From: Agarophyton chilense
Taxonomy: Eukaryota > Rhodophyta > Florideophyceae > Gracilariales > Gracilariaceae
Direction: 5' to 3'
Assembly: GCA_030374765.1 (NCBI GenBank)
Contig: JARGXX010000007.1
Span: forward strand, 372,001 to 436,000
DNA: 64,000 nucleotides
A program made the translations under genes and the position numbers. Shown piece after piece: positions 581 through 41,344 of the stretch; the stretch's first letter is position 1; every line of letters starts with the position of its first letter. A model generated the notes under the pieces. That model was given only the letters and a program-made list of their open reading frames with translations. It was not told the DNA's origin and ran no database searches.

Positions 581-1446
581 TGAAGAGCAACGTCCTCTAG
601 GGAGGTTTTTGGGGACTTAAGTTTTTTTTCCGGAGCCTCCGGCGTGCAACCTCGTTATGAGTAGGAGTAATCCGTTTTCACGGCGATGGCCAGAACGCCG
701 GTGATGCACCGGCGGGGTCGGGTGCCATACACGTGGCCGCAGCGCCCGCGCGACACGTGGCCGCCAGATTGGCCCCTTTGTTAGACGGACATTTAGCTAT
801 TTAGGATAGACTTTATTTATTCTATTCTACGGTGACTACAGTACTTAGGCCGCCGGCCTCGCGGCCGCCGGTCCAGTAAAGTCTCCCCAACAAGGGTGAT
901 CTTGGTCTTCCAGATCTTGGCTCTGGGTCGAACCGCCTGCGCGGATATACAACTCCTTACGGAGGGATTTCCCGTGGTGCACGGCTTCCCAACCCCCTTG
1001 GACGTTCAAGCAGCCTTCGTGTGTTGGGTATCTATTCCCACTTTCGTGGTTCCGCCCGTGTATACGGTTTGCTACACCCAGCAGTGCCGGCTATTCCCGA
1101 GTCCTCTCTTGCGACTCGTGGTCAACCTCGCCCTCTTGCCTCCGTTCCCATTTTCCTTCCCTTTTCCTCCCCTTCATTGGGCAATTCCCGCTCTTGCGGC
1201 TCGCACTGACACCTGTCGTGCTTGCCACTCTCGTGGGTTTTGCCTCCTCAGAGGATACGCAAGCACCGCTTCGGCGGATATTCTCGGCTTCTTTCAGCCT
1301 CCCTGCGCCCGTCGCGACGGTTCGGCTCCGGCTTACACCCGGCATTGCGCGCCGATCCCTGGGAGGGCTCTACCGCGCCGATTACCTCGTGAGAGGAAGA
1401 TCCGGACGTCTTCGTAGGTTTTCCCCCTTGGGGGAATTGTCCTACA
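581..1446 (+). repeat. G1 5' LTR
   Basis: An 866-bp direct repeat of 11074-11937, starting TGAAGAGCAACG and ending GTCCTACA. The upstream third carries two CACGTGGCCGC boxes (near 730-765), then a T/A-rich TTTATTTATTC stretch and a GC-rich imperfect inverted repeat near 850-872. Promoter and polyadenylation signals are expected here but no exact start can be read. Confidence 0.95.
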
Positions 1447-1449
1447 AAT

Positions 1450-1469
1450 TGGTCTCCCGACTTAGAAGT
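1450..1469 (+). other. G1 primer-binding site (probable)
   Basis: TGGTCTCCCGACTTAGAAGT begins three bases after the LTR. The same 20 bases follow the G2 5' LTR after the same 3-bp gap, although the flanking sequence has diverged. A TGG start fits pairing with the CCA end of a tRNA. The tRNA could not be identified by eye. Confidence 0.75.
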
Positions 1470-1569
1470 CAAGACCGCTTGTGTCCTCTCTGAGGTTGTT
1501 TTCCGTTTAACGGGTTTTCTCCGGTCTCACCGGTTTGCTTTCTATTCTTCCGTCGAGACGGTGTGGCCA

Positions 1570-3680
1570 ATGCCAAGGAAACCGCCTAGCATGGAGCCTC
1601 CTGCAACTCGCAGCCGTTCCCGCCAAAGCGGTGATGTCAGGGGCACTGATGTTCCACAGGCTCTGGCTCCAACACCGGATTCCCGGGAGATACCGGTCAC
1701 CGGCACTGAAGACCCGCAGCCCGATTCCGGTTTAACGACCGTCGTAACGGTGGTTTCTCCGCCTCCGCGGTTGGTCGACCAAGCGCGGATTGTACGCTTG
1801 GAAGAGCAGCTCCGCTCCCTGCGGGCTGCTCACAATACCCTCTCGAGGGAGTTCACCTCTTTACGAGGAAGCCTCGCTAACCCCCCTCCAAGTGAGTTAG
1901 CCGAGGATATCCGCGTATTGCGATCGCACGTCAATACACTACTCGAGTGTTTTGGCGCGCCGTCTTCCTTCGTAGAAGGTATGGAGAATCGCTTCGAGCG
2001 ACTCCGAAGCCGACTTGAGTCGGTCGAGAGGACGTTAACCACGCCCGCAAACGCGGCTAGACCGGTTGTCTCTCATCGAGAGACCCAGTCGCGGAACCGG
2101 AAGAGCCGGAAGAACCGGGATTCTAACCGTAAGCACGGACACCCGTCCGACTCATCATTTGAGTCGGAAGGTAAACCGAGTGACTCGGAGAGTTCCGATT
2201 CGTCGGTGAGCGATGACCCACAGGATCGTTATGGGCGCTCTTCCCGCTCAAAGCGGTCCTCTGCCACCTACGGGCCCATCCGGTCGCGCCCCAAGGGTCG
2301 GCGACATCCGGGCCTTAAACCTTTGAATCCCACCAACCCTCTGTACAGGACACTCTTGTCCTACCGGTATTACCGGCTAGAAGATTCCTCTCTAGGTCGG
2401 ACACCGCGCGACACGGGTAAAGTGAAAGACTGCATCAAGCGGATGCAGCTTTCACTTCGTAACCAGTCGTTTACTGGGGATGATCCAATTCGGGTCTGGG
2501 ATTTCCTACACCGCTTTGTAGCAGAAGCCGATATACTCGGAATGAACGAAGGACAAGCCTACGTGGCGCTACCCTACTTTCTACGGGGTGTCGCTGAAGA
2601 TCAGTTTTTGTCGGTTCGGGGCTCGTCGCGAGCCTCCGAAGGAGGTGTGACCTGCTGGCCCGAGGCCGTGCAGTACCTCCTGCGTTCGTACGCAACCAAC
2701 TCCGCGATACAAGCGGTGATACTCGCTTTGCGAGACACTCGACAACGCTCCGGCGAGCTCGAGACCGACTACTCGGTACGCCTGAATAAGGCTTTCCACC
2801 GTTGTGGTAATGTATAACCCGCTGGAGAACGCTGTACGATGTTCATTGATGGCATAGATCCAGCCATCAAGACTCTTGTCGCCCGTTAGAGGGAACAAGA
2901 GCCGAAGATGACCTACCTTGAACTCGTACAGTTTGCCCGCGCAGAGGGAGATGCACTACGTGCACGCAATCCAGGAACCCGGTCGAAGGCCGCTAAAGTA
3001 TTGCTGCTTGAGTCGGACTCTTCTTCACCGTCATTTGCGACGGATGGCATCCCCAAACAGGGTTATGACAATATGAATGTCATCCATCACGATGGTTTAT
3101 CTATTCCGACAACGGAATTACCGTCTACAACTGATGGCTCGGTTGACTCAACTGCAAGGGACACGGAGAACGGGCAGGTCTTTTATCTTAATGACCGTCG
3201 CACTCCCGCCCCCGTATGCCGTACTCGAACGGAATGACACGAAGTCAGCGCACTGGATGGGTTGGAAACCGGGAACCCGGAAGACACACCGATGCTCGGA
3301 ATGCCGTACCGCGAAACGCGGGAGTGACGTTGGTGTGCCACTTGTGCTACGAGCGCGGGCACACCTCCCCGCAATGCCTTTTATCGCTACGCGATATGGC
3401 GCGAGTGGTGGATAATTACGAAGCCCTCTCCCCGCAGGAGAAGGGCTCCGTGCCACTCACGTCATATCTCCGCGCGAAGACGGACTTCCCCAACGCATTG
3501 GCTCACACTCCGAATTCTCGGTACAAACCGGCTCAGCCGGCACGCGCCGCACCAGCGCCAAACCACGCTGGTGGATCTCAACCCGCTCCTGCGGTAGCTA
3601 CCGTGCAACGGAATCATGCACTCGTTGCCGAGGAAGTCGGGCCTTCGCCCGACCAGGGCCCTGTACAGGGAAAAGAATAG
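1570..3680 (+). pseudogene. gag: G1 gag (capsid/nucleocapsid), broken
   Basis: Structural polyprotein of the element. The first ATG in the open frame is 1570 (the frame is open from 1561). The N-terminal third is Arg/Ser/Pro-rich with a predicted coiled stretch and a Ser/Glu/Asp tract. The central capsid-like part matches G2 gag closely. A CX2CX4HX4C zinc knuckle (CHLCYERGHTSPQC) lies near 3341-3382. Compared with G2, TAC has become TAA at 2815-2817, a second stop TAG lies at 2887-2889, and the frame changes around 3210-3237 before the knuckle. The frame ends at TAG 3678-3680, where a frameshift signal leads into pol. Confidence 0.9.
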
Positions 3681-3702
3681 AGGGAGTCTCCCCTTCGGGA
3701 GA
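3668..3702 (+). promoter_or_regulatory. Candidate -1 ribosomal frameshift signal, gag to pol
   Basis: In the gag frame the heptamer G GGA AAA (3668-3674) fits the X XXY YYZ rule and ends one codon before the TAG at 3678. Slipping one base back enters exactly the pol frame, which is open from there to 7003. About 12 nt downstream, TCTCCC and GGGAGA (from 3687) form a 6-bp stem with a 4-nt loop. G2 has a comparable arrangement at the same place. Inference from sequence; no function shown. Confidence 0.6.
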
Positions 3703-6700
3703 GGCGTCCTCAGAGTTGAGGCTGACGACGCCCGAGGCGCCGATGCCTCGCTCCCCGGTGAAAATCCTGACAAGGAAGGACATCGCAGACGCGGACTCTA
3801 AACACCTCGGTGTTTTGCGTCGACCGTGGATACGGATTAGAAATAACCGGATCCCGGATAGAGTCTTGGTAACGGCCAAGCGTAACTACAAGGTATACGC
3901 TGACCTTGGTCTGCACACGCAGTTTATGGTGAGATATCTTACTGTCCTGGATACAGGTGCTCGACCGAACTTTATTGTGGAATCGGTTTTACCCCCGCCA
4001 TTGCGGTCACTCATCCGTTCTGAAACGGTACCCGAAGTCTCAGACGCCAATAACAACCAGTTGAAAACGGGTGGTGTGATCGACCTGGTCGTCAGGCTAG
4101 GGCGGATGGTGGTTAAACTAACTTTTATTGTGTGCCGCTCGTTGGCCGCGCCAGTTATACTGGGATGTGACTACTACGACAGGTTTGTCAACGCCATCCG
4201 CCCACGCCTTAAGCAGGTGGAACTTGAGGACGGATCAACCGTCCCCATTGTTCGTCAACCGCTGAAGCGGGCATCGAGGAAACACGTTCCTCTACCTGCT
4301 GCGCAGGAACCCACACCGGCGAACCGGGATTCTACGAAGCTACGCGTTGCCTCGTCAGTCACCATACCCCCGGAGAGCCAGGTTATGGTTTCAGTCAATT
4401 CCCGTCAACACGGTCTTCGGGTTGTTCAGCTCTTGCCGTCGTTGTACGAGAAATTTCAGTTAACCGTTGCGAACGGAATCGTGCAAGTCACGCCGAATTC
4501 CCCTTTCAGGGTGTTGGTTGCCAGTCTGGGAAAGGCTCCCCAGACGCTGGCAAAGAACCAAGTCATTGGGTCTGTGACGCCGCACCCGCTCGCGATGCTC
4601 CCTACAAAGGTGACGGCTGCCGAAGTACTCGGAATAACTCCCTCTACAGAGGATGGTCTCCCGGTATCCGGTGCAGAAACCTCCGGGGAGGCACAGCAGT
4701 TGGCGCTCGATAAAACCGTCAAGACGGATGCACTTCCGACCTCGTCGGTTCCCACACCTGACACCAGGGCACAGCCTACCAGCTACGATAAGATAGACCC
4801 GATCAAGGCCCTCGAGGACCTGAACCTGAGTCATGTACCGGTCTCACACCGGGACCGCTTACGCGGAATGCTACGCGAGTTTACCACAATGTGGGACGGC
4901 TCACTGGGTGAGATCAATACAACCGAACATCGAATAGACTTGCTACCGGACGCACGTCCGGTTGCACAACCCCCTTACAGGGCGGGACCGAAAGCTCGGG
5001 AGGAGGAAGAATTTCAGGTGGACAAGATGCTCCGTGCTGGAGTCATCGAGCCCGCCCAATCTCCTTGGGCTTCACCGGTGGTGCTGGCCCTCAAGGCTGA
5101 CGGCACGTGGCGGTTTTGCGTTGACTACCGCCGCCTCAATGCCGTCACCGTGAGGGACACCTACCCGATTCCGCGCATGGACGAGTGTATAGACTCGCTC
5201 GGGGAAGTTACCGTGTGTACGGCTCTGGATGCTAACTGGGGCTACTGGCAAGTCCCAGTCCGGGAAGAGGACCGAGACAAAACCGCGTTTGTTTGCCACT
5301 TGGGGTCCTACCGCTTCAAGCGGATGCCGTTTGGTTTAACCAATGCACCGGCCACCTTTCAAAGGGCAATAGACATACTGATGTCGAGTTTCAAGTGGCG
5401 CACGTGCCTTGTCTACTTGGACGACATCATTGTCTTTTCCAGAAACCTGGACGATCACCTGACCCACGTGCGGGACGTGATGACCGTACTGCGAGACGCA
5501 GGAATAACCCTCAAGTTGAGGAAGTGCGAGTTCTTCACCGACACGGTAAAGTATCTCGGGCACGTCATCCGTCCAGGACGGTTAATGATCGAACAAGTTC
5601 GTATCAAGTCCCTCTGCGAGGCGAAGGAGCCCCGTACTCAAACGGAGCTCCGATCCTTTTTAGGTCTGGTCAACGTCTATCGACGGTTTATACCGAGTTT
5701 CTCGGATATCGCCACTCCGCTAAACGCGCTACTGCGGAAGGGCCAGCCACTGAAGCTTGCGCCATTTACCACCGATCAGTCGGAATCTTTTCGCTCCTTG
5801 ATTAAGGCAGTTACGACAGCCCCCATCCTATTCTTGCCCAAACCTGGGCTTCCCTACTCCATCGCCACCGACGCCAGCGACCACCAGGTGGGCTGCGCAC
5901 TGTTCCAAACCACCCCCGAGGGGGAACGCAAACCAATTGGCTATTGGTCCCGCACGCTGAACGTCCATGAGCGCAACTACTGGGTCTCCGAGAAGGAGTG
6001 CCTCGCAGTGGTCTGGGCGCTATCCACTCTGCGCCCATACCTCATGGGCGTTCATTTCACCGTGTACACGGACCATGCCTCGTTGAGGTGGCTGCTGAAC
6101 ATCGCAGATCCTTCTGGCCGCTCAATGCGGTGGCGCCTCCGCTTAGCGGAATTCGACTTCGAGGTCGTCTACAAAAAGGGTGTCCAGAACACCCAAGCAG
6201 ACGCCCTCTCTCGATTACCTACGACAGGTGAAGCACTTGCCGACCCGGAGGTCGACGAGATCCCGTGCTTTATCTTGGAAGGGGAAACACCGACGGAGTC
6301 GGATTGGCCCGAAACCGGGGAAGAGACCATAGAAATGGATGAGCTACTCGCAGCGCGCGAGAATAAAACACCCGTACCCAGGACCTTTGTACCAATCTCC
6401 ACCGAGGAGATGATCCAAAAACAGTTCGGCGACCCGTTCTGCACGCGCATACGGGCCCGCCTAAACGGTGGAGAGGACCTCCCGTTCGAGGTAAACGACT
6501 TCGGTTACCTCGTCTGGACGATGGACCACCGATCCCAGATCGTGGTCCCCCACACCCTGCAAACCAAGGTGCTCCACCTCTCACACTACCCGACCCTCGG
6601 GGGACACTCCAGTGGGAGAAAACTTTATCTAACCCTGCGAAGGGACTTTTATTGGCCCGCTATGGCGGTTGATTGCTACGCTACGGTGCAGTTCTGCACC

Positions 6701-8899
6701 CAATGCGCAAAGAACCGGGTGAAACTCCGGAAGCACTCCAAACGGATGAAGCTTTTCCCCGCAAGGGCGCCCCTCGAGTTTGTCGCAATCGACATTCTCA
6801 GGCCTCTACTCAAGACGCGCAAGGGAAACAAGTTCCTCTTGGTTATCACTGACCGCTTTTCGAAGCTGGTGCGCACCGTACCTTTACGGAAGATCACCGC
6901 TTTCACGGTTGCGAACGCCTTCGTTACGCACTGGGCGTTCGTTTATGGCCCTCCAATAGAGGTTCTATCCGATAACGGTAAGCAGTTCGCCTCTAAGTTC
7001 TTTTAGGACGTCCGCCGCATCCTCGACGTCAAGAACCTGTTTACTACCACCTACCACCCGCAAACAAACGGGCTGGTGGAACGCTTCAACCGCACCCTAT
7101 TCGCGTCGCTACGCTCCTACGTATCCGATCACCCAATGACGTGGGACATTTATTCTGATGCTATCACCTACGCCTACAACACGCAGGTTCACCGGACAAC
7201 CGGTCTGACTCCCTCCGAGCTTGTGCTCTCCAGGACACCCCCGCCAGTGGCGGTCGAACCCCAACACAGGGTCAACTCTTTCCCATCCGTGGGTCAATAC
7301 CGCGTCAAGTGGAAGAACTGGTTTACCAAGCTCGTACAGGTCGCCCGGAAGTCCATGGAACGTGCCCAGGCCATCTACAAGCGGGATTTTGATAACCGCT
7401 TACGCGGACCACTACCGGCACCGCCCAAGCCGGGAACCTACGTGTTCGTTCGCCGGGAGTACTGCAACCCCCGGACCGACAAGCGTCACAAGCTCTCGCC
7501 TGTCGCTGAAGGTCCGTTCCGGGTCGTGTCCTCCCTCCCCGGCACCGTTGTGGTGGACAAGAACGGCGACCACGAACGTCTTCCACAAGACTGCATCGTA
7601 GCCGCCCCACCGCCGCAGGCGGAAAACACATCAGCCCCCGTCGAAACGGCCTCGGATACCACGGGTACAACGGTGGCACCACGCCCCGCCGTGGTACCGC
7701 ACCCCTCACGGGGTCTCTCCGATATACCGACTTTATCGGAACCACCGGCAAGGCCGGAAACACCTGGCCCCCGCGGCCAGCTACCCTTACGGGCGCTGCG
7801 CAGCGGTATTTATACCCGCCATGCGGTTAGCCCACCATCACCCGTCGCTCCGTCTAGGGAGGGGGAGGGGACCCGCTCAATCGCGGAAGCATCGCCGTCG
7901 CAACGGAAGTTTAACCGGACACCCCGGGCAAGGCCCCCGAGCGGGCAACCGGCATCGTCGCCAAACGCTAATCCGCTCACGCGGGACGCGGCGGTCAACC
8001 CGACCGCCACGCAACCCCGCAAGGGGGACCAAGGCGCTCGAAGACCTGAAGCCGGGAAACGAGACCCTACAGACGCTCCGCATCGCGTGAAAGCAACTGA
8101 GGGCTCTGCGCGAGCAGGTCTAGCGAGCCACTCCGTTGAGAACGGTACGAACCCCATAGGGGAAAAAGGGCGCGATGACAAGTCGAAAACCGCCTCCCTT
8201 GCCGAACAATCGGAGCCAACCGTCCGCGACGGTCCGACCACCCGTCCTCAAGGTCCCGTGACCCGGGCGGGAGATCGGACCAATGGGCACCCGGCATCCC
8301 GGTCATTGGCTGACAGCCATCCCGCGGAGGCGGATCGCCGGGACGGTGAACCACTCACCGCCCACGGCGCACCGCACGGCGGAAACTGCCCACCAATGGG
8401 AACGCCGCATGCCGCAAATCAAGCGGAGGCCTCCGGCGAACCGTCACCAAGACGGAAGGACCCCCGCAAACTCGCGGTAAGAGCGGACTTCAGGGAAGCC
8501 CCTACCGCCCAGCGGAAACACAGCCCGGCCGCGCCGACAACGTCCGTGAAGCGGTACGGCAGCCCCGGCAACCCGGCAACAACCGCAGAGCGGAATGACA
8601 AACTGGGTGACCCGGAACACGCGACGACGAGCCCAGCACCACGCGGCGCTGAGGCTCGGGTCACCACCACCCGGCAAGGCCGGCAAGTTTACGTGCAGGA
8701 GTACGTCCTCGACCGAATCGTCGGACATAGCTACGATGAGCACGGAGTGCTCCAGTACCGGACCCACTGGTACGGATACGGGCCGGAGTGGGACACCTCG
8801 GAGCCCATCGAGCACTTCCCGCGCTCCGTGGTAATGCGATACCACCGTCTTGCGGGGACCGCACTCCCAGCCACGCTGGCAAACGCCCAAGAGGGATAA
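3668..8899 (+). pseudogene. pol: G1 pol: protease, RT, RNase H, integrase, chromodomain; one stop
   Basis: Replication polyprotein. Seen in order: retropepsin LDTGA with catalytic Asp-Thr-Gly at 3950-3958; RT from about 4928 with YLDD at 5413-5424; RNase H with TDASD near 5868 and TDHASLRWL near 6068; integrase zinc site (HLSHYPTLGGH to CTQC, 6575-6705); integrase catalytic Asp 6791, Asp 6971 and Glu 7079, giving a D-35-E spacing; a long Pro/Arg-rich linker; and a chromodomain at about 8700-8850 (YRTHWYGYGPEWDTSEPIE). A single TAG at 7004-7006 sits between the second Asp and the Glu, where G2 has GAG. The chromodomain places it among chromoviruses, which use it to target chromatin. No methionine is needed because entry is by frameshift. 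Confidence 0.95.
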
Positions 8900-9463
8900 A
8901 CCGTGAACACAGAATGGAATGGCTGATGGCGCCACGCGCCATCTCCGTCCATGCCCCAACGCGGGGAAGGAAGCAACCGCTCACGCTATCCCAACGTCGT
9001 TGATGGTCGTGCCAGTTACCTGGTCCGCGCGCGAAGCGCCCACCGGTAAACACGGAACTCCCAGCTAGGCTGGTTCCCTGCAACGCCGGAACCCCGGTAG
9101 AAGGCCGATACCCCGGAAAGAAAGAAGCGGACTTGGGAAAGGGCGTCGGAAAGGCGACCCTCTTCTTTTTATTTCTCACTACTGGCAAGGGCGCCCTAGT
9201 GGCGCCGCCCTACATTCTACCGGAAGCTCCGGTCATTCCTCCGCACGAGGTGGATCCCCGCTCAGGCGGTTGGCTAAGGCATCCCGCATGGCGGCCACAT
9301 CACCCGAGATCTCGAAAGGGCGAAGCCCCACCTCCCGAAGGAAGCGCGCGATGACCTCGCCCCGCTCTGCGCCAGCGGCAGTTGTGGGCGGGCCCGCCAC
9401 CGATGGAGTCGGATAAGAATCCGTTCGCACTGCATCAGTAGCCCCGGATGGAGCCGCACTACC
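8900..9463. other. G1 spacer between the convergent pol and antisense genes
   Basis: No gene seen. It contains a perfect inverted repeat GGCGCC-CTAGT-GGCGCC (near 9190-9206) preceded by a T-rich run, between two converging transcription units. A role in ending transcripts is only a guess. Confidence 0.5.
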
Positions 9464-11026
9464 TTATTCAACGGACTCCTTACTGGCCTCGCCGGACTCG
9501 TCATCCTCCATCGGAGCATAACCCGGATCCTCCGGTTCGTTGTCGACCATCGGGTCACCATCCGCATAGCCGCGGTAATAGTCGCTCGAGTCGACATACC
9601 CTCGCGGGTGGTCGGCCGGGACTTCACGTGGCGCATGCCGGTTGGCTTCCGCTTCCTCGCGGCTGATCTCGTGGTACTCCCAGGGGTCGAAGTAGATGAA
9701 ATCTCCCGCTAGCGCGGTATTCCTCCCGAAGCCGGGGCCAGACCCGCGCTGCGGTTGAATGCGTTGGGAGTTCTCCAGCGGGACTTCATCCCACTGGACC
9801 CCCTCCACAAAGTCGAGGAGGCCCAGCATCTCTTCTTCGTTCGCCTCGCCCCCGAGGGGGATGCGCATGTCCAAACGGCGGATCGCAGCCCGCACACGCG
9901 GTGGCACGTACCACAATCGGTATTGGTCGTACGCCTCAGCGAGGATAAAAGCCGCAGTGCGGACGGCCCATTCGCTTACCACGACAGACCACCACCCCGA
10001 CTGGGGATCGTTCAAGAACGACGACCCTACATAAGTGAAGACTGGGGGCAGCTCAATGAAGCAACCCCAGCACGCCTCCAAGGAGGACCACCAGTCTGGG
10101 AGACTGACGTACCGACCACGTCGGTGAGCAGGCGCGATGCGCTCAATCTCCGTGTTCTGGTACGGTACGAAATACCCTGTCCGGGCCCGCCAACGCCGCT
10201 CATCGCGGATGAAGTTCTGAAGGAAGTTCGAGCGCGACTGCCGCGGTTGGTAGCGGAACTCTGCCCGAAGAATCGGTCGTACCCAGCAAAGGGGTTCTTG
10301 CCGAGCGATCGGTGTGCCCCTCCAAGCGAGGGTTTCCAATCCGTAAAGACGGCCACAGTACGACATTTCCCCGCGAGTGCGGTAAAGGTGGACGTCGAAT
10401 TCGACCTCTGGCGGTATCGGGAACTCGAAAGGCGCCCGATGGTACCTGAGATAAGCGATCCGCACAAGCGCGGCCTGAGCCTCCGCAGAGGTTTCACCGC
10501 GTCGTCGGAGTATGTGGTGTACCGGGATGGCGATACGATTACGCCAATCCCAGGACATGGTCACCACGCCGGGCAGGTCGCCCGAGAGCATCTCCGAATT
10601 ATCGGTGTAGGAGTGGATCAAATCCTCGTCGTGGACAGCCAATGGGTGAAACCAAGGCGCATACCGCAACATCGCGGAGCCATGCCGAGTTCTCGGATTT
10701 GCGCCCACAAGGGCGTCGTAGGTCGGCCACTGCGGTGGGTCCGCCTGTCCGCGAAAGCGGGCGCCAATACGGCGGTCTTCGTACGCGAGGTTGACGGCCG
10801 CAGTTCGGCTGGTAACATCCCCAGGGTGGGGCACGGACCGGAAGCCGGTGGAACCGCCAAGGGCGGGAGTCGCGGATGTGTTATGACGGTCGGGGTTGGA
10901 CATGGTGCGTGTTGGTGTGCTGTGGTTGGAATCGGATGCGAAGAGCTTGCGTGGGGTCCTTGGTGAAGGTGTGTTGGTTTCCGGAGACCCGGTGTCAGAC
11001 GCGCTCTTATCACGTCGAGCTGCCAT
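9464..11026 (-). CDS. Antisense accessory protein of chromovirus G1 (unknown family)
   Basis: A 520-codon open frame on the strand opposite gag-pol. The first ATG inside the element is at 11026, 47 bp from the 3' LTR. The frame stays open back to 11200 in the LTR. An internal ATG at 10903 (MSN) aligns with the start of the G3 homologue. I do not recognise the family. The N-terminus is Ser/Thr/Pro-rich. The middle is rich in Trp, Tyr and Arg with blocks shared by G2 and G3: YAPWFHPLAVHD, RTGYFVPYQNTEI, YVSLPDWW, AYDQYRLWYVPP and GDFIYFDPWE. The last 40 residues are acidic. No signal peptide, membrane span, zinc site or obvious catalytic motif is seen, so an envelope role is not supported. It is the only intact gene in G1. 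It could be expressed from an antisense promoter in the 3' LTR. Confidence 0.85.
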   Translation of the reverse strand: MAARRDKSASDTGSPETNTPSPRTPRKLFASDSNHSTPTRTMSNPDRHNTSATPALGGSTGFRSVPHPGDVTSRTAAVNLAYEDRRIGARFRGQADPPQWPTYDALVGANPRTRHGSAMLRYAPWFHPLAVHDEDLIHSYTDNSEMLSGDLPGVVTMSWDWRNRIAIPVHHILRRRGETSAEAQAALVRIAYLRYHRAPFEFPIPPEVEFDVHLYRTRGEMSYCGRLYGLETLAWRGTPIARQEPLCWVRPILRAEFRYQPRQSRSNFLQNFIRDERRWRARTGYFVPYQNTEIERIAPAHRRGRYVSLPDWWSSLEACWGCFIELPPVFTYVGSSFLNDPQSGWWSVVVSEWAVRTAAFILAEAYDQYRLWYVPPRVRAAIRRLDMRIPLGGEANEEEMLGLLDFVEGVQWDEVPLENSQRIQPQRGSGPGFGRNTALAGDFIYFDPWEYHEISREEAEANRHAPREVPADHPRGYVDSSDYYRGYADGDPMVDNEPEDPGYAPMEDDESGEASKESVE

Positions 11027-11060
11027 GCCGACTTCCTCTTCGAGATGTTCGCCCTGTCTT

Positions 11061-11073
11061 AAGGGGGGGGATA
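11061..11073 (+). other. G1 polypurine tract
   Basis: AAGGGGGGGGATA lies directly before the TG start of the 3' LTR, as expected for the plus-strand DNA primer. G2 has AAGAAGGGGGATA at the same place. Confidence 0.85.
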
Positions 11074-11937
11074 TGAAGAGCAACGTCCTCCAGGGAGGTT
11101 TTTGGGGACTTAAGTTTTTTCCGGAGCCTCCAGCGTGCAACCTCGTTATGAGTAGGAGTAATCCGTTTTCACGGCGATGGCCGGAACGCCAGTGATGCAC
11201 CGGCGGGACCGGGTGCCATACACGTGGCCGCAGCGCCCGCGCGACACGTGGCCGCCAGATTGGCCCCGTTGTTAGACGGACATTTAGCTATTTAGGATAG
11301 ACTTTATTTATTCTATTCTACGGTGACTACAGTACTTAGGCCGCCGGCCTCGCGGCCGCCGGTCCAGTAAAGTCTCCCCAACAAGGGTGATCTTGGTCTT
11401 CCAGATCTTGGCTCTGGGTCGAACCGCCTGCGCGGATATACAACTCCTTACGGAGGGATTTCCCGTGGTGCACGGCTTCCCAACCCCCTTGGACGTTCAA
11501 GCAGTCTTCGTGTGTTGGGTATCTATTCCCACTTTCGTGGTTCCGCCCGTGTATACGGTTTGCTACACCCAGCAGTGCCGGCTATTCCCGAGTCCTCTCT
11601 TGCGACTCGTGGTCAACCTCGCCCTCTTGCCTCCGTTCCCATTTTCCTTCCCTTTTCCTCCCCTTCATTGGGCAATTCCCGCTCTTGCGGCTCGCACTGA
11701 CACCTGTCGTGCTCGCCACTCTCGTGGGTTTTGCCTCCTCAGAGGATACGCAAGCACCCCTTCGGCGGACATTCTCGGCTTCTTTCAGCCTCCCTGCGCC
11801 CGTCGCGACGGTTCGGCTCCGGCTTACACCCGGCATTGCGCGCCGATCCCTGGGAGGGCTCTACCGCGCTGGTTACCTCGTGAGAGGAAGATCCGGACGT
11901 CTTCGTAGGTTTTCCCCCTTGGGGGCATTGTCCTACA
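11074..11937 (+). repeat. G1 3' LTR
   Basis: An 864-bp copy of 581-1446 with about 15 visible differences, including a shorter T run. It ends in GTCCTACA and is followed by the right TTACA duplication (11938-11942). Confidence 0.95.
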
Positions 11938-11942
11938 TTACA
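11938..11942. repeat. Target-site duplication of G1, right copy (TTACA)
   Basis: Identical to 576-580. Confidence 0.9.
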
Positions 11943-14680: not shown

Positions 14681-15109
14681 TGGTGTCATGGTGATTAGCC
14701 ATGCTGTGATAAAACACTGTAGCGGGTGGAGACTAGCTCTACAGGCGAATGTGAATGAGCACAAAGCTCCGGAGTTCTTCTTCCTCCGTTTTCGGTTCTC
14801 CTTTTTCCTTGGTCCCTCTATCTCGAGCAGACCTGTCTATATATACCTAATGCTATACCCTTTCGTCGAGTTCTACAGCTACGTGCTCTTTCGTAGCTTT
14901 CGCTCTAGCTGGGCAGGAATAGCGTACTGCAGTTGCCGGTCTATTAGCTACTTTGAATCGAGGACCGTTGCACTTGCTATCGCGGTCCCTTCGATTCGCG
15001 TTATCAGCTAGTTGACCTTTCTGCGTAAACTAACAATGACATCCCGTCATGTTGCAAATACAGTCACTATGTCATTTCATAGTGTCGCACAGTGTCGCAT
15101 AATGCCACA
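14681..15109 (-). repeat. C1 3' LTR
   Basis: A 429-bp repeat, 427 of 429 bases identical to 19825-20253. On the coding strand a purine tract (GACGGGGGA, 15110-15118) precedes its TGTGGCATT start. A TATATATA-like element lies near 14838-14846. Confidence 0.95.
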
Positions 15110-15149
15110 TCCCCCGTCATCGCACGAAAGCTAAAGTGCGATATTGCCT

Positions 15150-18100
15150 TTATTGCCACTCGCAGCTGTTAACGGCGTAGCCGGACTCGATTTGCATACA
15201 GACCACTCTTGAAGACGTCAGTTGGTTTAGTAACCTGAACGTCTGCTTATTTCGTTTTGTGAGTGCGTCTGCCGGGTTTGCATCGCCAGGAATCCAACGC
15301 ATTAAATCCAGTTCTTGTGAGTCAAAGCTATTGCGAATGCGCTGGACCGTCGGTCGTAGTCTGTAGTCTTTTTCTTCGTGCAGAGTCGTTATAGTATCGT
15401 ATAAACATCTGGAGTCCGTTGCGAGTTCGCTACGCGTTTTCACGAAGGGAAATAGCGATTGTAGCCCATATTTAAGATAGAATCCACGGTCATCTGCATC
15501 GGCACAGGCAAGAACTTCGGCTCCGTAGGGTGAGTAACTAACTCTTCTTTGTTTGTTGCTACACCAATCGATGGTATGAAAGAGGTTCACACCATCATTT
15601 CGTATGATCCGAAGTCCAGTAATCAGCCCGGTCTGTCCGTATCCTGAACTCGTGCCGTGGTTGAACGAGGCATCAGCGAATGAAGAGACGAGCACTTCGC
15701 TAATATGTGTAGCCTTTGGCGGTGCTATGAAGGAGATTTGTGGTTCCAATTCCAATAGTTCCCTGAGCATATCGTTGGCTGTAACGAGATGCCCGACGCA
15801 TATTTTGGGGATTAGCTGCTGTAGAGTCGAAGTGACGTAGGCTGTTTGGGGAAGAACCCCGTTACCAAGATACATGAGTGTGCACGCCAGCGAGCGGAAC
15901 TGCGACAGTTCTGAGTCAGTGGCATTGCTTTGTCGCTCCTTCTTTCTAGATCTCGAAATCTCAATGGGTCGCAGTCGTTCGAGGTATCGTTTCATTGACA
16001 TGGTGATACTACCACCGTCGTCTTGGGTGATCTCACACCCGTCGAAATTGATCGGCTTATCAATGAGGACCTTTCCGACGATGAATCTTTCTTTCAGTTC
16101 GGTGGTAAATTCCGTCATAGCTTCGATGCTTCCGCTAAGCAGAAAGTCGTCGGTGACTTAAGCGACGAGCAATCTTATACTGCCTTCTCGATTACGTTGT
16201 ATGAAGAGCTGGGAAAGTCCTAGCACCCGTTCCAATTTGCCGTTCTGTAGCATCCAGGCTTCTATGGTCTTCTGCCATTTTCTTCCTGCACCTGCTATTC
16301 CATATGGGAGTTTCAGTAGCTTCCAGAGCAGACCGCGCATGGAGTTCCACTCCCGTGGTGGTCTGACGTATATATCTCTGTCGATGGGGCCACTTTGTAG
16401 AAAGGCCCCTTTAATGTCGGCAGTGCCGATTCTGAACCCAAGGAATGTTGTCAGCGATAGCAGTAACCGAACGACGAATAAGGGGGCGTTGGATGAATCC
16501 TTTCGTACGTTGTCCTTTTCATCATCATGGTTCCCGTGAGGAACAATACGGGCTTTCATTTTCCTCTTACCGTCTTCATCAGTTTTGATTTTATATACGA
16601 CGTGTGAGGTGATGACGTTCGCATGTTTATGGACGTCGGTGTCGGCAACCTCAACGTACGCATCAATCCAGTTAGCATCGTGCTCGCTCTTGAGTGCTTC
16701 CTTTAAGATGTAAGGCGGTGCGAAGGACAATTGCGATCCGGATACCTGTTTCGATCCGATGACCTCGTAGATCTCTTCCAATTCCTTTGTGTGATCCCTA
16801 GTTAGAGTACGTCCATCGATGATCGATGATTTTTGGGTAGATAGCTTTGCATAGGGTCCAATATCTTTCTCTCCCTGATCGTGACAGGTATCGGTGGTTG
16901 GTGTCGGAGACGAAGGGGGTGTCGGATACGAAGATGCGCCAAGGAGGGCGGCTGTGGGTCGAGGTGGATGGTCATCGGGGACAGGGGTTGCATTACGGAC
17001 GCTCGGGGTAGCGGGTTGGTCGGGCATATCGGCAGGGTCTTGTTGAAGCTCTTCTTCAAGCGAGCAGGACATGAGTTCAGCAATGAGGGAGATTCGGGGT
17101 GCAAATCGAGTGTCTTCGTATGCAACGCGCGTGGGACGGCCGTGATGAGACCGGCGAACTTCGAGGAGCTCAGGGTGTGCGGCGATCACGGTAGCTTTGA
17201 CCCATTCAGCGGGTTCATTCTGCTTGCTAGTGTCATAAAACACCCAGACGGGATCTCCAGGATTGAAGTGTTCAGCCCTGAGAGGTTCGTGGATGCGGGA
17301 TTTAAGAAGTCGTTGAAGTTTCCTGACAGCTGTCTGTTCTTTGTGAGCATGTATCAGTTCTTCCGTGACGACCGTTCGAGGGAGTCCTACAACGGAGGGA
17401 CGGTAGCCGCGTACCAGCTCGAATGAGCTTAGCAGCTTGCTGCCAGAAAATAGATTGGATAGGAATGCAGCTCGTGCGACAAGCGTTGCTGTATCCGAAT
17501 TAGATGGTTCGTCATCGAGTTTTGAAAGGATTGTCTTGACAGTGGAGTTCTTGCGTTCGACGATGCCTGTCTTGTTATGACGTCGGCTGGGGCGTGGTTT
17601 AAACTTGATGTCATGTACCGACAGAAAGTTGCGTAGCCCGGAGCGGTTGTATTCGTCATCTGCAGAGACAGCATTTGGGGCACCGTGTCGGCATATCCAG
17701 GAAGTCTCGAGCGTGTTGATGATGTCTTGAGCGGTGCGCCCGTTGGTAATTGTTAGCTCCGAGTACGATGTTCCAGTGTCTGTAATGTTCATGATTGTGA
17801 TTTTTTTGCATTTGACAGTAGGAAATAAGAAATCTATCTGTATTTCCACATTGAACGCTTGATTGACATGGGTAATCGAGATCTTTCGGCTTGGAAGTGG
17901 ACGACCGTTCTTGGCACATATTTCGCAAGCGTCGTACACACGTTCGATTGCTGCTTCTAGTTCGGGTGTTAGCATTTCAGCGTCCTTGCATAACAGTTTC
18001 ATTTCGTCAGCAGTAGCATGTGTGTAACGATGGACCCGTTTGCAGAAAGTAAATGGAGCACGTTTTGCGGAAGAGTGTATGTTCCCAAGTAGCGTGCTTT

Positions 18101-18541
18101 TGATTTAATGTGGATGCGGTGCTATATCGAGGCGGAGGCGGTTATCTGGCGGCGATATGTACGTGAAGAGTATGCGTTCGTCTTTGTCTGTGGGTCGTCG
18201 CATGCAGATGTACCGTTGCTCTTCAAGGTTGAAGGTGTTGCAGTGCTTTCGTACATCATTTCCGATAATAATCGGTGATTCCCCTGGCACAAGGTCGAAG
18301 GTGAACGATGTTGGTCTGCCGTTGATGTCTTGGACCGTGAGCGTCCAGGAGCACACTACCATTCTGGCTCCAAGGCAATCCTGTCCCCACCCATGCATAT
18401 ACCTTTCGCGTGGAGGGTCGAGTTGGAGGGTTATGCCAAGGAAGTCGCACAATGTCACGGCATTTTCTATGCCGCCGGTGGAGGTAGGAGCTCCTTCATC
18501 TAAGATGGGGTTCGGATCAGGTGGGAGCTGATCTAATCCCT
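15150..18541 (-). pseudogene. pol: C1 pol: protease, integrase, RT, RNase H; two stops
   Basis: The pol frame is one base back from gag and has no clear slippery site. The protease region reads ILDEGAPTSTGG, with D-E-G at 18492-18500 where retropepsins have D-T/S-G; its second half has the expected PIIIGND. After an in-frame TAA (18105-18107) come the integrase zinc site (HRYTH to CEIC), catalytic Asp in QIDFLF, Asp in SADDEYN and Glu in GIVERKNS, then an acidic and Pro-rich linker. RT has DIKGAFLQ (first catalytic Asp). A second TAA (16158-16160) falls directly before the catalytic VTDDFL, where V-T replaces the usual Y-V. RNase H follows (ADADDRGFYLKYGLQ, LMRWIPGDANPADALTK) to the stop at 15150. 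Both stops are in an otherwise continuous frame. Confidence 0.9.
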
Positions 18542-19846
18542 TTACCGAAAGTACGAGGCACTTTCACTTGGCCTGTCGTCATTTGTTAACTGCTGTCGTG
18601 CGTCAGTTTCCATTACCTTAATAATACTGGTAACAGGTACCTTCGTCTTATAGCTGCCGTCAGTGTTTTTGAAGAGATATCGGAGCTTTGGAGTCACCTT
18701 TGCAGCGATGGACGCATCCACGTCTCGACCACTTAGCAGGGTCTTAATGACGTTGTACACGCATTCTGGGTCCCGGAACCAATGGTTTGTTTGTTTGCAA
18801 TTTCGGCAGCGCGTGCTGGCTTTTGGGCCTTGTCCAGAAGGGATATGAGTCTTGTATCGCTTATCACGCTGTGGTCTACCATTCCTCTCCGGTTCGTATC
18901 CCTCTCTTTTGCCGAACATTGTACCGATTTTGGTAACCTGCTGGTCTCCTTTGCTTAGTCCGTTGTTATGTATTTTGAACGCAATGTGGTGATCAGAGAG
19001 GACGAAACAAGCGTCCGCGAGTCGAATGTTCAACGCGTTCTGTTCGTGCACGTCATTTTCTTTGTTTAGCCTGATCGTTTCTTCTGTGGCTAGTTTAAGA
19101 GATCGTAAATCTTCGGAGAAACTACTCGGCGTGTGTTGTTCTTGTGATGAAGTTGTATCTTCTATCCTTTTGACAAGTTCCAAGATGTACTCGATCCTTG
19201 CTTTGCTTATACCATACGTCTTCTCTGCTTTGGTTGTATTTATCTCGGTAGCTAATGCGACCAGCCTTGTTACTACGGCGCTGTGAACATCTGCAGGAAG
19301 CTTCGCATTTTCTAGGAGCAGCATAGCGAAGCTCTGGCTGTCCTGGTCGGACAAGCTAGAAGTTGAATGATTGATGTATGTCTGAGCCAGGCTACGGAAG
19401 CGTTTGGCGAATCGAGATGGTGACTCGTTCTCACGTCTGACGCAGGCGAAAACTTCTTTCATCATACTCACTATCCTGCGTACTCCTTCGGTAGGAGAGT
19501 CTTTGGCCACTAACTCGACGATCTTGCGTACCAGAATGAGTTGATTAACAGGTTCCATGATGTCCTCATCGTGTACTTCTAGGTTGATGTGGCCTGCAAC
19601 GATTGCTTCTTCTACCATGGACGTATATTCCTCGTCTAGTGCTTTGTAAAGCGTAATGCCGAGTGCACTGAGCATTCCTTTCGTTTTGTTGTCACCTCCC
19701 TTTGCATAGAGTTTGACTGTTGTTACCCACAAATTCACTTGCTTCCTCCATTTAAACATATTCGTGTTTGCCCTCAGTGCCGGTGGTAAGCCTGGAGTTG
19801 AGCCGCCACCTGGGCCCATAACTGTGGTGTCATGGTGATTAGCCAT
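18542..19846 (-). CDS. gag: C1 gag (Copia capsid/nucleocapsid), intact, starts inside the LTR
   Basis: A 434-codon open frame. Its ATG (19844-19846) lies inside the 5' LTR, 22 bases before the LTR ends, and the frame then reads through the primer site (residues about 8-12, TVMGP). Yeast Ty1 gag also starts in its LTR. The central helical part resembles UBN2-type Copia capsids. A knuckle-like CRNCKQTNHWFRDPEC sits near residue 345 with CX2CX4HX6C spacing, two residues longer than the standard form. It forms the particle and binds element RNA. The stop is TAA at 18542-18544, with pol in the -1 frame. Confidence 0.85.
   Translation of the reverse strand: MANHHDTTVMGPGGGSTPGLPPALRANTNMFKWRKQVNLWVTTVKLYAKGGDNKTKGMLSALGITLYKALDEEYTSMVEEAIVAGHINLEVHDEDIMEPVNQLILVRKIVELVAKDSPTEGVRRIVSMMKEVFACVRRENESPSRFAKRFRSLAQTYINHSTSSLSDQDSQSFAMLLLENAKLPADVHSAVVTRLVALATEINTTKAEKTYGISKARIEYILELVKRIEDTTSSQEQHTPSSFSEDLRSLKLATEETIRLNKENDVHEQNALNIRLADACFVLSDHHIAFKIHNNGLSKGDQQVTKIGTMFGKREGYEPERNGRPQRDKRYKTHIPSGQGPKASTRCRNCKQTNHWFRDPECVYNVIKTLLSGRDVDASIAAKVTPKLRYLFKNTDGSYKTKVPVTSIIKVMETDARQQLTNDDRPSESASYFR
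19809..19824 (-). other. C1 primer-binding site, complementary to initiator tRNA-Met anticodon arm
   Basis: On the coding strand CAGTTATGGGCCCAGG follows the LTR directly. GTTATGGGCCCAG is the exact complement of the eukaryotic initiator tRNA-Met anticodon arm (CUGGGCCCAUAAC). Internal half-tRNA priming of this kind is known from Drosophila copia. C2 has the same site. Confidence 0.85.
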
Positions 19847-20253
19847 GCTGTGATAAAATACTGTAGCGGGTGGAGACTAGCTCTACAGGCGAATGTGAAT
19901 GAGCACAAAGCTCCGGAGTTCTTCTTCCTCCGTTTTCGGTTCTCCTTTTTCCTTGGTCCCTCTATCTCGAGCAGACCTGTCTATATATACCTAATGCTAT
20001 ACCCTTTCGTCGAGCTCTACAGCTACGTGCTCTTTCGTAGCTTTCGCTCTAGCTGGGCAGGAATAGCGTACTGCAGTTGCCGGTCTATTAGCTACTTTGA
20101 ATCGAGGACCGTTGCACTTGCTATCGCGGTCCCTTCGATTCGCGTTATCAGCTAGTTGACCTTTCTGCGTAAACTAACAATGACATCCCGTCATGTTGCA
20201 AATACAGTCACTATGTCATTTCATAGTGTCGCACAGTGTCGCATAATGCCACA
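19825..20253 (-). repeat. C1 5' LTR
   Basis: Partner of 14681-15109; the two visible differences are at ATACTG/ACACTG and GAGCTC/GAGTTC. It contains the gag start codon at its inner end. On the coding strand its outer end carries repeated CACTGTGCGACACTATG-type motifs. Confidence 0.95.
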
Positions 20254-25570: not shown

Positions 25571-26950
25571 ATGTCTGCTTCACACGCCTGCACAATGCGC
25601 CCACCGCCGTTCGCGCTCACCTCCGCCGCAATGGCTTTTCCGTCTTACGACGCGCCCACCACTTCCATGTCGGACGTCATCCCTTCCCACCCCGCCCTGA
25701 CCCCCGTTTCCACCAACGCACACGAGTATGCGAATCATTCCGTCTCACCATCTTCTTCCATCGTCCCTTTCTTCCGCCCTGCCCACTTTGAGCCACGCCC
25801 CTCTCACACACACTCACCGCTTTCCTCCCATCCACTGTCCGCTGCCCCGCCAGTTTCCACCCCTGCCGTCTGCACCCTGCCTCACCGTAATTGCTTCGCT
25901 TCGCTGTTTTCGCCGCAGCTCGCCGTGCCCGCCCCGCAACCCCCCGCCCCGCAACCCCCCGCCCCGCAACCCCCCGCCCCGCAACCCCCCGCCCCTCCGT
26001 ACCACCATCAGCAGCTTCCCGATCTCAGCTTCGTCGTAAAAGACGACAGCGTGCATCGCGCAAGCGGCCACATCGCCTGCGACATGGTCAACAGCTACCG
26101 ACAGCAGCGCCGCCCATTTGGTAAATCTCCTCACGACACCAGCCGACCAGTCAACTCTGCGCATAATTCGTTCGATCCTCACTCGCCTGCTCACCAGGAA
26201 ACGCCCGCCCTCTCCACTTCGTCGCAGTCACATCTTCTCGGACATTCACAAGGTACCAACCGAGTCTCCTCCGCTGCGTACAGCTCGTGTACCGGCCGTT
26301 CGACCTTGTTGATGAAACGCACTCCCAATTGCGGGTGGACCAAAGCAGAGCATTTCCTCTTTCTCAAGGGCTTGCACTACCACGGCCGAGGTAATTACAA
26401 CCAGATTGCCGCGTTGGTGCGAACCAAAAGTCTCATGCACATCCTTTCGCACGCCCAACGGTACTTTGAGCGCCAGTACAATCCGCGCAGCGTCAAAAGC
26501 TCCGTTCACGACCTAAACCTTCATTGTGAAGAAATGCATGATGAAAGAAACAAGGCGAGGCAAATGCACACTTGCCGGCAGCTACAGTTTCAGAGCCAAG
26601 GCAGTGACACAACTGTTTCACAACCACCTCTGCCGCAATGCGAGGTGGCGTTGCCAGTTCGTGTGCACAGCATTGACTTGCTCATCAACCATGATGATCC
26701 GCCAAAGCACATCGAGGCGTCCTCAGTTTCTCCCTGTGTATCTTCGATGGGTGTTGCGCGTACATCTCTCTGTAGAAAAGCGGTTGATACGGTGTGCCTG
26801 GAGAGTAACGATGCATTACCTCATCCGCCTGCGAAGCGCGTTCGATATCATACTGCGATGCCCCGCACGCGCACTGAGGCGTTGGTGTTTAGACGTGGCG
26901 CATATGGCCACGCTACCGTGAGTCAAGAAATGATTTTGTCCAGTTGGTAA
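25571..26950 (+). CDS. MYB-like (SHAQKYF-type) DNA-binding protein
   Basis: A 459-codon uninterrupted frame, the only intact host-type gene here. Residues 1-250 are low-complexity Pro/Ser/His-rich and include a PAPQP repeat (25931-25996). A single MYB-like repeat lies at about residues 254-306: GWTKAEHFLFLKGLHYHGRG, then NYNQIAALVRTKS and SHAQRYFERQ. The pattern W-x2-E-x3-F-L-x-G-L with a SHAQ-[KR]-Y-F end is the hallmark of plant/algal SHAQKYF single-MYB transcription factors, which bind TATCCA/GATAA-type sites. The start is the first ATG after the pyrimidine tract; ATGs at 25604 and 25631 are alternatives. The C-terminal 150 residues are featureless. A nuclear regulator is inferred; the target is unknown. 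Confidence 0.8.
   Translation: MSASHACTMRPPPFALTSAAMAFPSYDAPTTSMSDVIPSHPALTPVSTNAHEYANHSVSPSSSIVPFFRPAHFEPRPSHTHSPLSSHPLSAAPPVSTPAVCTLPHRNCFASLFSPQLAVPAPQPPAPQPPAPQPPAPQPPAPPYHHQQLPDLSFVVKDDSVHRASGHIACDMVNSYRQQRRPFGKSPHDTSRPVNSAHNSFDPHSPAHQETPALSTSSQSHLLGHSQGTNRVSSAAYSSCTGRSTLLMKRTPNCGWTKAEHFLFLKGLHYHGRGNYNQIAALVRTKSLMHILSHAQRYFERQYNPRSVKSSVHDLNLHCEEMHDERNKARQMHTCRQLQFQSQGSDTTVSQPPLPQCEVALPVRVHSIDLLINHDDPPKHIEASSVSPCVSSMGVARTSLCRKAVDTVCLESNDALPHPPAKRVRYHTAMPRTRTEALVFRRGAYGHATVSQEMILSSW
25931..25996 (+). repeat. 15-bp minisatellite inside the MYB-like gene
   Basis: Four exact copies of CGCCCCGCAACCCCC plus a partial fifth, encoding PAPQP repeats. The unit is a multiple of three, so copy-number change keeps the frame. 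Confidence 0.95.
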
Positions 26951-31199: not shown

Positions 31200-31680
31200 G
31201 CTCCGCCCAGACCTTAGCCCCATACTTGATGAAGGGGTACAAACGTCCACGGGAGAAATCGATAACGCAACTGCACTATGTGACTCGCTAGGTAAGGCTG
31301 TGCATTCAGATCCATCTCGTGATAAGTACTATCATGCATGGGGGATACAGCCGAAAATCCCAAAGAGATAGTTTGCACATGGAACGTCATCATCATTGAT
31401 GTTCATGGGAGACCAACTGTGATACCATTTGACCTAGTCGAAGGAAATTTACCACTGATTATCAAGCTGGACATTAAAAGATATGCGGACACTTTTGAAT
31501 TACCAAAAATCACCGATTATCTCCTTTAAAAGACCTTTGACTCAGAAGTACGAGTGTCCTACACTTACATTGACCAGGACGGAGCGAAAAATGACACATT
31601 TTCAACTGAGAGCATTCCCTATGTACGCTCCTGTGGTATTCCACTGAAGACTGTAGAGGTCTCAGTGAAGTGGATATCCG
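31200..31680 (+). pseudogene. C2 protease remnant with the same D-E-G site
   Basis: ILDEGVQTSTGEIDNATALCDSLG starts near 31222, with D-E-G at 31228-31236, and lines up with C1 ILDEGAPTSTGGIENAVTLCDFLG. A frame change follows, then VCTWNVIIIDVHGRPT, FDLVEGNLPLIIKLDIKR and FTYIDQDGAKND-like blocks parallel to C1 (VCSWTLTVQDINGRPT, FDLVPGESPIIIGNDVRK). The sequence stops being alignable shortly before the G2 LTR. Confidence 0.75.
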
Positions 31681-31746
31681 CGTAAATAACCGCGAAGAGC
31701 GGGTGTCGCCTTGCGAGCGACGGTTCTTCGATAAGAAGAGAGTAAG

Positions 31747-32634
31747 TGAAGGGCAATGCCCTTCAAGGGGGTTCTTCCCAGGACTTAGAGATTTCGCTCG
31801 CTTGAGGACTAGCTTAGTCTATGACAAGCTATACCGCTATTGCGTGCCGACGGCCGGTTAGGACCGGAGGTGTACACTGGTGGAACACGTGGAATGCACG
31901 GATGCCGACGCTCGAGTGCGAGGTGTGCCACACGTGGCCCGGATTCTATTTAATGGTTAGTATTATTTAGTAATTTTCAGTATTTATTTAGCTACGCTAT
32001 CGCTATTTAGTGTCTATTCTTCGGGCGCGCGCCCACTGTCAGGGGCCGCGCACCACACTACTTAGCAGGTTGAGCACTGCTCCCCAGTAAACACCCTCTT
32101 GGGTGATCCCAAGGAGGGAGTCTTGGCTCTGAACTCTTCGCCTTCGGCGCGTCTTCACCACATACTGCCTGAGCGCCCGTCGCACGTTAGTTCACCCACC
32201 CCTCTGTCGATCAGAGTGCTACCACCACCGAGGGTTCATATTTAATTGCCGAAACTTGTCGTAGTCTCGCCCCTGTATAGGGTTTCGCCCCCGTTTTCCT
32301 CTTGTTCTCCTTTTTGGCTCTCGTGAGTGGCCGCCCCACTCACCCCGCTCGTCCACCTCATACGAGTGCTTACTCGCCTCCTTTTCCGACAATCGCCGTG
32401 GTACCGCTCCGCCTAGGATTGGTCACACCCCGGACTGTGCCCTGCTCACCTAAACACTCTAGGTATATCCCGCCGGATTAGCCTCGGTCTTACACCCGAC
32501 TCCGTCGTGCCTTTCCAGAGTGGCTCTGTTCCTGTGCTCCGCTGGGACGCGTCTCCTCCGCCTGAGACGTGTCTCTCAAGAGAGGAAGATCCCGAACATA
32601 TTTATGGTGTCTCCGCTCCAAGCGTTGTCCTACA
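31747..32634 (+). repeat. G2 5' LTR
   Basis: 888 bp, partner of 41345-42232. It starts TGAAGGGCAATGCCC and ends GTCCTACA. It has two CACGTG boxes (near 31888 and 31932) and a GC-rich inverted repeat near 32024-32050, in the same order as in G1. Confidence 0.95.
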
Positions 32635-32637
32635 AAC

Positions 32638-32657
32638 TGGTCTCCCGACTTAGAAGT
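32638..32657 (+). other. G2 primer-binding site (probable)
   Basis: TGGTCTCCCGACTTAGAAGT, identical to the G1 site and at the same 3-bp distance from the LTR. Confidence 0.75.
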
Positions 32658-32799
32658 TTGAGTCGGGCACACTCAGTCACGATTAATCGGAAAGAGGACT
32701 CACAAATTCAGGTTGATTTCAGTTGCCTTCTTTGAGGAAGTTCTTTGGCCCCACTTGGCGATCGGGTTTGAATACTCACGTGTAACGGATTCTGATCTC

Positions 32800-34858: not shown

Positions 34859-34881
34859 ATGTAGGAGTCTCCTCTCAAGGA
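34849..34881 (+). promoter_or_regulatory. Candidate -1 frameshift signal in G2
   Basis: In the gag frame G AAA AAC (34849-34855) directly precedes the TAA at 34856. It differs by one base from the canonical A AAA AAC. A one-base slip enters the pol frame. CTCCT and AGGAG flank a 4-nt loop just downstream (from about 34869). Same placement as in G1 with a different heptamer. Confidence 0.5.
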
Positions 34882-39866: not shown

Positions 39867-40078
39867 GAATACTGCCGATGGGGTCAAAGGAACAGAAGAT
39901 CTGGATAATAACCCTTGGAAGAAGGAGAAGATGCACAGAAGACCTGGAGAAGGACACTCAGAAGAAGTGGAAGAGAAGAAAGAAAACAAATACGTCATAG
40001 ACGGAAGCAGTTTACTATTTTCGAAGTTGCTGCACACACTACCGCACAGCGGGATATACTAACCAAGATCCCGAGGGA

Positions 40079-41331: not shown

Positions 41332-41344
41332 AAGAAGGGGGATA
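41332..41344 (+). other. G2 polypurine tract
   Basis: AAGAAGGGGGATA immediately before the TG of the 3' LTR. Confidence 0.8.

Follow-up and report, generated by a model that had tools for sequence, protein, structure and literature searches.

Some long terminal repeat (LTR) retrotransposons, and the retrovirus human T-cell leukaemia virus type 1 (HTLV-1), carry a gene on the strand opposite to gag and pol. Here we describe such a gene in a stretch of 64,000 nucleotides from the red alga Agarophyton chilense (contig JARGXX010000007.1, positions 372,001 to 436,000; hereafter the window), where it occupies positions 9464-11026 of the minus strand within a Ty3/Gypsy chromovirus that we call G1. 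Among the described systems, HBZ is a retroviral basic leucine zipper factor that acts on LTR transcription or on the sense RNA. It is encoded by an antisense gene of HTLV-1 whose promoter lies in the 3' LTR, and the protein is nuclear (PMC7264820; PMC11963269). Plant elements of the Tat/Retand lineage, among them maize Grande with GENE23, rice RIRE2 and Silene Retand with TRP28 (PF04195), are described as holding antisense open reading frames (ORFs) between pol and the 3' LTR in most copies; the TRP28 domain lies antisense in 97% of Retand element clusters, and the function of these ORFs is thought to be regulatory (PMC7264820; PMC11963269). For Grande GENE23, a nuclear protein and antisense transcription from a promoter upstream of the gene are reported (PMC7264820). 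In the fungus Botrytis cinerea, the Boty-like Gypsy elements likewise contain an antisense gene, brtn, between pol and the 3' LTR (PMC7264820; Zhao et al. 2011, cited in PMC8365987). More generally, the REXdb survey of plant LTR retrotransposons describes extra ORFs (eORFs), 250 codons or longer, that accompany gag-pol in forward or reverse orientation, many of them so heterogeneous that their function was questioned (PMC6317226); TRP28 of Retand is presented as a well-kept exception among them (PMC11963269).

The red-algal gene resembles the plant Tat/Retand ORFs in being antisense to gag-pol, in its place before the 3' LTR and in being widely kept. In contrast, the Retand carriers are non-chromoviruses of flowering plants, whereas the red-algal elements end in a chromodomain; moreover, in G1 just 47 bases separate the ATG of the red-algal gene from the LTR, and the Pfam searches listed no PF04195 match for it. 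The likeness to brtn, compared here by description, lies in the antisense place, and the difference in the fungal host; HBZ is compared here for its layout and proposed mode of working, with no sequence relation claimed. Unlike the heterogeneous plant eORFs, one protein family recurs here in six chromovirus families. The kind of gene is thus known from plants and fungi, but three things appear to be new: the family to which the protein belongs, its occurrence in a red alga and its presence in a whole set of chromovirus families. Searches of open-access papers listed none whose title concerned antisense genes of red-algal retrotransposons.

An antisense gene family with a fixed place in chromoviruses

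The window contains three chromoviruses, G1, G2 and G3, and in each of them the antisense gene runs opposite to that element's pol. A sequence-only reading of the window had assigned these three genes to one protein family of constant position and orientation. Both assignments were confirmed, the first of them far above chance, and the family extends to at least six chromovirus families of the genome. The searches covered the 79.76-Mb assembly (135 contigs), from which all copy counts are lower bounds that include the window's own copies. Genes of the G1 type, which are 91-100% identical to that of G1, occupy at least 83 places, and among the matches listed the matched 520-residue stretch is free of stops in 60 of the 83 places (hand count). 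The G2 type is found in at least 133 places and the G3/G4 type in at least 120 (121 rows, two of which are pieces of one place). Among the matches listed for the latter, the 28 top rows (73-100% identity) belong to G3 and only three of them, one being the window piece, lack a stop, which marks G3 as an old, decayed family; most of the remaining rows, at 57-60% identity, represent G4. A fifth type, G5, accounts by identity for 83 of 107 rows listed, again a lower bound, with three loci checked (L060-L062). The sixth family, G6, is represented by locus L077 (G000:C128:804900-807500), which was reached via its chromodomain with no use of the antisense gene in the search, and whose antisense gene is 56% identical to that of G1.

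The layout was compared in 61 loci from five families, comprising 58 from the G1, G3/G4 and G2 lists (the window's three among them) and the three G5 loci. In 60 of the 61 a chromodomain lies on the opposite strand beyond the 3' end of the gene, with 74-945 bases between its match and the point where the best gene match ends, and the gene stands between the pol chromodomain and the 3' end of the element; locus L053, without a chromodomain match, is the sole exception. The presence of a 3' LTR beyond the antisense gene was demonstrated for G1. As expected of an antisense additional ORF, the gene is located on the opposite strand, downstream of pol and inside the element, and it is present in many copies that encode a conserved protein. 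This layout is thereby extended to red algae and to chromoviruses.

Selection on the antisense frame

Pooled over eight G1 copies, the window copy included, the ratio of nonsynonymous to synonymous change (omega) is 0.472 in the gene's own frame and 1.02, 1.25, 0.85, 0.503 and 1.03 in the five other frames, all of which hold stops in nine of nine representatives. Between five families the proteins share 31-53% of their residues, the proportion of differing nonsynonymous sites (pN) amounts to 0.30-0.50 and that of synonymous sites (pS) to 0.72-0.80, which is saturated, and the differences fall mostly at third codon positions. This substitution pattern indicates that the antisense gene is protein-coding and under purifying selection. 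Many further copies are open and evolve under constraint rather than with a dN/dS near 1. Nor is the frame the codon-bias shadow of a forward gene, as the forward ORF opposite the gene (9755-10966, 403 amino acids, omega 0.85) carries 2-10 stops in nine of nine representatives. Selection that retains the protein suggests that the elements use it.

The sequence-only reading had further proposed that selection on the gene has lasted longer, or been more stringent, than selection on pol. Pooled over six G1 elements, omega is 0.512 for the antisense gene (pN 0.0295, pS 0.0577) and 0.616 for a 1096-codon stretch of pol (pN 0.0234, pS 0.0380), both values being raised by decay after insertion; omega is thus slightly lower in the gene, yet its pN is slightly higher. 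Between G1 and G2 the antisense gene is 48% identical, compared with 64% for RNase H-integrase and 52% for the integrase end, and between G1 and G4 it is 39% identical, compared with 60% for the stretch from reverse transcriptase to integrase. By these identities the antisense protein diverges faster than reverse transcriptase-integrase between families, and the constraint on its gene is comparable to that on pol, not clearly stricter. What stands of the earlier proposal is the conserved antisense gene family in chromoviruses; the stricter selection is not supported, nor is the intactness claimed for the G1 copy, which is considered below.

Structure of G1 and its truncated antisense gene

The features of G1 are as follows.

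581-11937, plus strand: whole G1 element, flanked on either side by TTACA; its ends and the target-site duplication were identified by inspection of the sequence
581-1446, plus strand: 5' LTR; LTR pair 98.2% identical, TTACA target-site duplication at 576-580
1561-2817, plus strand: gag-like ORF; Retrotrans_gag at E 0.034, below the Pfam cut-off, otherwise assigned by position
3716-7006, plus strand: pol part 1 (reverse transcriptase, RNase H, integrase); RVT_1 8.6e-35, RT_RNaseH 2.2e-35, H2C2 1.7e-11, rve 1.8e-6 (rve below cut-off)
7076-8899, plus strand: pol part 2, with the chromodomain at about 8702-8815 (residues 543-580; Chromo E 8.9e-6, above cut-off)
9464-11026, minus strand: antisense accessory gene, C-terminally truncated copy; 520 amino acids from the ATG, relatives 591-597
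11061-11073, plus strand: probable polypurine tract, G-rich, read from the sequence; directly before the 3' LTR
11074-11937, plus strand: 3' LTR, from LTR pairing; TTACA target-site duplication at 11938-11942
11300-11319, minus strand: A+T-rich and TATA-like stretch within the 3' LTR, candidate promoter element read from the sequence; it precedes the antisense ATG by about 280 bases

The polypurine tract and pol assign the element to the plus strand. Its order of reverse transcriptase, RNase H and integrase, the C-terminal chromodomain, the paired LTRs and the short target-site duplication are those of a Ty3/Gypsy chromovirus. In the window, pol is broken by a stop at 7006 and the following ORF continues in the same frame; several other G1 copies hold pol as an uninterrupted frame of 1847 codons. 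The TATA-like stretch was found in the LTR of all three copies compared, and copy L003 reads TATATAAAG.

The antisense copy of the window, which had been taken for the only unbroken gene of G1, is itself truncated: its 597-codon stretch is cut short by a stop at residue 521, with the loss of about 77 residues. Upstream of the ATG its frame stays open on to 11200. Other G1 copies encode 591-597 amino acids from the same ATG (L002, L003, L005-L008), and L004 encodes 655 from an earlier ATG. The part missing in the window copy carries the C-terminal motif FL...GL.....GD...MR..L..RL in G1 and in the Gracilariopsis chorda protein P0001; a similar motif is present in G2 and a looser one in G3, G4 and G5.

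The encoded protein

Across families the protein measures about 500-620 residues and consists of a variable N-terminus, a conserved core with a basic stretch, an acidic linker and a short C-terminal motif. The core, at about residues 91-480 of L002, contains the blocks RPILRAEF, VPYQ, ELPP, Y.GS and YD..RLWY.PP; in five families the net charge per 60 residues reaches +4 to +10 in the core and then falls to -8 to -15. The peak hydropathy over 19 residues ranges from 0.88 to 1.63 in eight proteins, and for G1 it is 1.17, against a mean of 1.16 for its shuffled versions. The protein is accordingly predicted to be soluble with no membrane segment standing out, which argues against an Env-like role in export. 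An Env-like protein was rejected on this ground, as no 19-residue stretch exceeds 1.63 in the eight proteins, and on account of the antisense orientation.

The structure prediction and fold search that the sequence-only reading had proposed gave a mainly helical core of moderate confidence, with no structural neighbour above noise in a search that included PDB and BFVD. No match above noise was obtained for the protein in Pfam, PHROGs or PDB either, so that the reported lack of resemblance to any named family holds within the libraries searched. For the two domains known from plant antisense ORFs, Transposase_28 (PF04195, TRP28 of Retand) and the plant mobile domain (PF10536, Ogre elements), sets of 10 and 8 family members gave no match up to E 10, within the limit that the HMMER filters discard most matches above E of about 0.1.

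Relatives and descent

Proteins related to the antisense gene are found in Gracilariopsis chorda, namely P0001 (59% identity over 90% of the query) and P0005, and partial Agarophyton chilense proteins (P0008, P0010-P0012) match the G5 family at 85-96%. In a gene tree of 14 rows, G3 joins G4 (100/99) and G1 joins G2 (100/99), while P0001 and P0002 group with G1 to the exclusion of G2 (100/99); P0004 and P0003 form long branches of unsure place, for which the tree tool issued a long-branch warning. The integrase-end tree (five rows) sets G3 and G4 apart from G1, G2 and G5 (100/100) and leaves the order among the latter three unresolved. On the one split that both trees resolve, (G3,G4) versus (G1,G2,G5), gene and integrase agree. 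If descent was vertical, the split between G1 and G2 would predate the separation of Gracilariopsis and Gracilaria. A remote relative of the core, P0015 (29% identity), comes from a 662-base ENA contig and may indicate that the range of hosts is broader.

Proposed role and alternatives

We propose, with a probability of about 0.5, that the antisense gene is the third gene of these red-algal chromovirus families and encodes an accessory protein, translated from an antisense mRNA, that works as a trans regulator in the manner of GENE23 or HBZ. The mRNA would start in the 3' LTR, in keeping with the 47 bases that separate LTR and ATG and with the TATA-like stretch in the LTR of three copies; as gene and pol are arranged tail to tail, any antisense promoter has to be sought in that LTR or past it. 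The protein would work in trans on the cycle of its own element, most probably inside the nucleus, and its target would be LTR transcription or the sense RNA, as has been proposed for Grande GENE23 and as holds for HBZ in HTLV-1. The layout of the protein is in keeping with a regulator binding to nucleic acid or to a partner, without proving it. Several points weigh against this proposal. The antisense mRNA, its promoter and the nuclear location are inferred rather than observed, and base pairing between the genomic RNA and a strongly expressed antisense transcript could trigger silencing. Motifs for nuclear localisation are poor, with single RRR, RRRR or RKR runs in four of five families and none in G5, and no family or fold match indicates binding of DNA or RNA. 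One reverse frame has an omega of 0.503, nearly as low as the 0.472 of the gene, although its 18-27 stops in each of nine representatives mean that it is not coding. Finally, among five control loci chosen by their chromodomain, one carries the gene, three (L073, L075, L076) have no match to it in the 2.6 kb read, and one resembles a host gene; three of four element-like controls thus lack a gene match, and an element of this genome may do without the gene; these three are possibly chromoviruses of another clade.

Rather improbable, in our view, is a purely structural role without regulatory function, in which the protein is a component of the virus-like particle together with Gag, or aids packaging or particle traffic. 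Its large conserved core and its length of 500-620 residues would suit such a protein, and the mainly helical core model leaves room for a capsid- or nucleocapsid-like fold; antisense expression, however, uncouples the protein from the genomic RNA and from the supply of Gag, similarity to G1 gag and pol stayed within the noise (E 0.64 and 0.079 at best), and the two nucleoprotein matches in BFVD are at noise level as well (E 2.7 and 3.5). Somewhat less probable still is a suppressor of host silencing, which would block RNA interference or chromatin silencing provoked by paired sense and antisense RNA. Double-stranded RNA is likely if both strands are transcribed, and the high copy numbers of G1 and G2 (at least 83 and 133 places) would fit an advantage over host control, but no Pfam domain of any kind was found above noise.

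We consider it very unlikely that the gene is a host or foreign sequence, recently captured and passively carried. Plant extra ORFs have been suggested to be often acquired independently from different sources (PMC6317226), but the red-algal gene is shared by six or more families of elements, the gene and integrase trees concur on the resolved split, and a chromodomain lies beside it in 60 of 61 loci, with one undecided; furthermore, the families differ at 30-50% of nonsynonymous sites, which makes the gene old. The least credible alternative treats the antisense RNA as the functional product and the frame as incidental or as the shadow of a forward gene. Non-coding antisense transcripts of retroelements are known (PMC7264820), and a 403-residue forward frame does lie opposite the gene, but selection acts on the protein frame, and the forward frame shows the omega and the stops given above. 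As a full explanation this alternative is refuted, although the RNA could still serve as a second function.

Returning to the trans regulator, we speculate, more tentatively than for the role itself, that it arose in an old set of red-algal chromovirus families, from a protein family of its own and independently of HBZ, GENE23/TRP28 and brtn, as a recurrent solution to self-control, in which the 3' LTR would serve as a bidirectional promoter, and that it has been kept since before the Gracilariopsis-Gracilaria split if descent was vertical. Irrespective of this, a second, unrelated-looking protein family is kept by purifying selection in a single genome across six chromovirus families, and Gracilariopsis, another genus, has a close relative of it; several hundred natural copies of a protein without matches above noise in Pfam, PHROGs or PDB make the function of such genes testable.

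Other elements and genes of the window

The remaining chromovirus features of the window are listed below.

31738-42232, plus strand: G2 chromovirus, nested in G3; LTR pair 31707-32634 / 41304-42232 (93.5%), 5' edge at about 31707-31738
40079-41082, minus strand: G2 antisense gene, broken by a frame break; two overlapping frames (40079-40966 and 40765-41082), N-terminal part missing
42842-44404, plus strand: G3 antisense gene (G3 element on the minus strand); frames 42842-43390 and 43397-44404, stop at 43388-43390, ending early relative to L014
45049-45162, minus strand: G3 pol chromodomain (G000:C7:417049-417162; Chromo E 2.8e-7), on the strand opposite to the G3 antisense gene

G2 does not lie beside G3 but sits inside it, near its 3' end: three G3 relatives (L013, L014, L020) are contiguous from window positions 31628-31743 to 42232 onward. 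The pol domains of G2 from RNase H to rve are above the cut-off, and Chromo, at 24.2 bits, is slightly below it; L047, a relative of the broken G2 antisense gene, has 554 amino acids.

Further along the window, a young Copia element occupies 14681-20253 on the minus strand, with LTRs that are 99.5% alike and RVT_2 (E 1.1e-13) in the ORF at 16158-18002; its ORFs at 15150-16118 and 18542-19846 gave no Pfam match. An ORF of 459 amino acids at 25571-26950 contains a Myb-like DNA-binding domain (E 2.4e-5, barely above the cut-off) and is perhaps a host gene.
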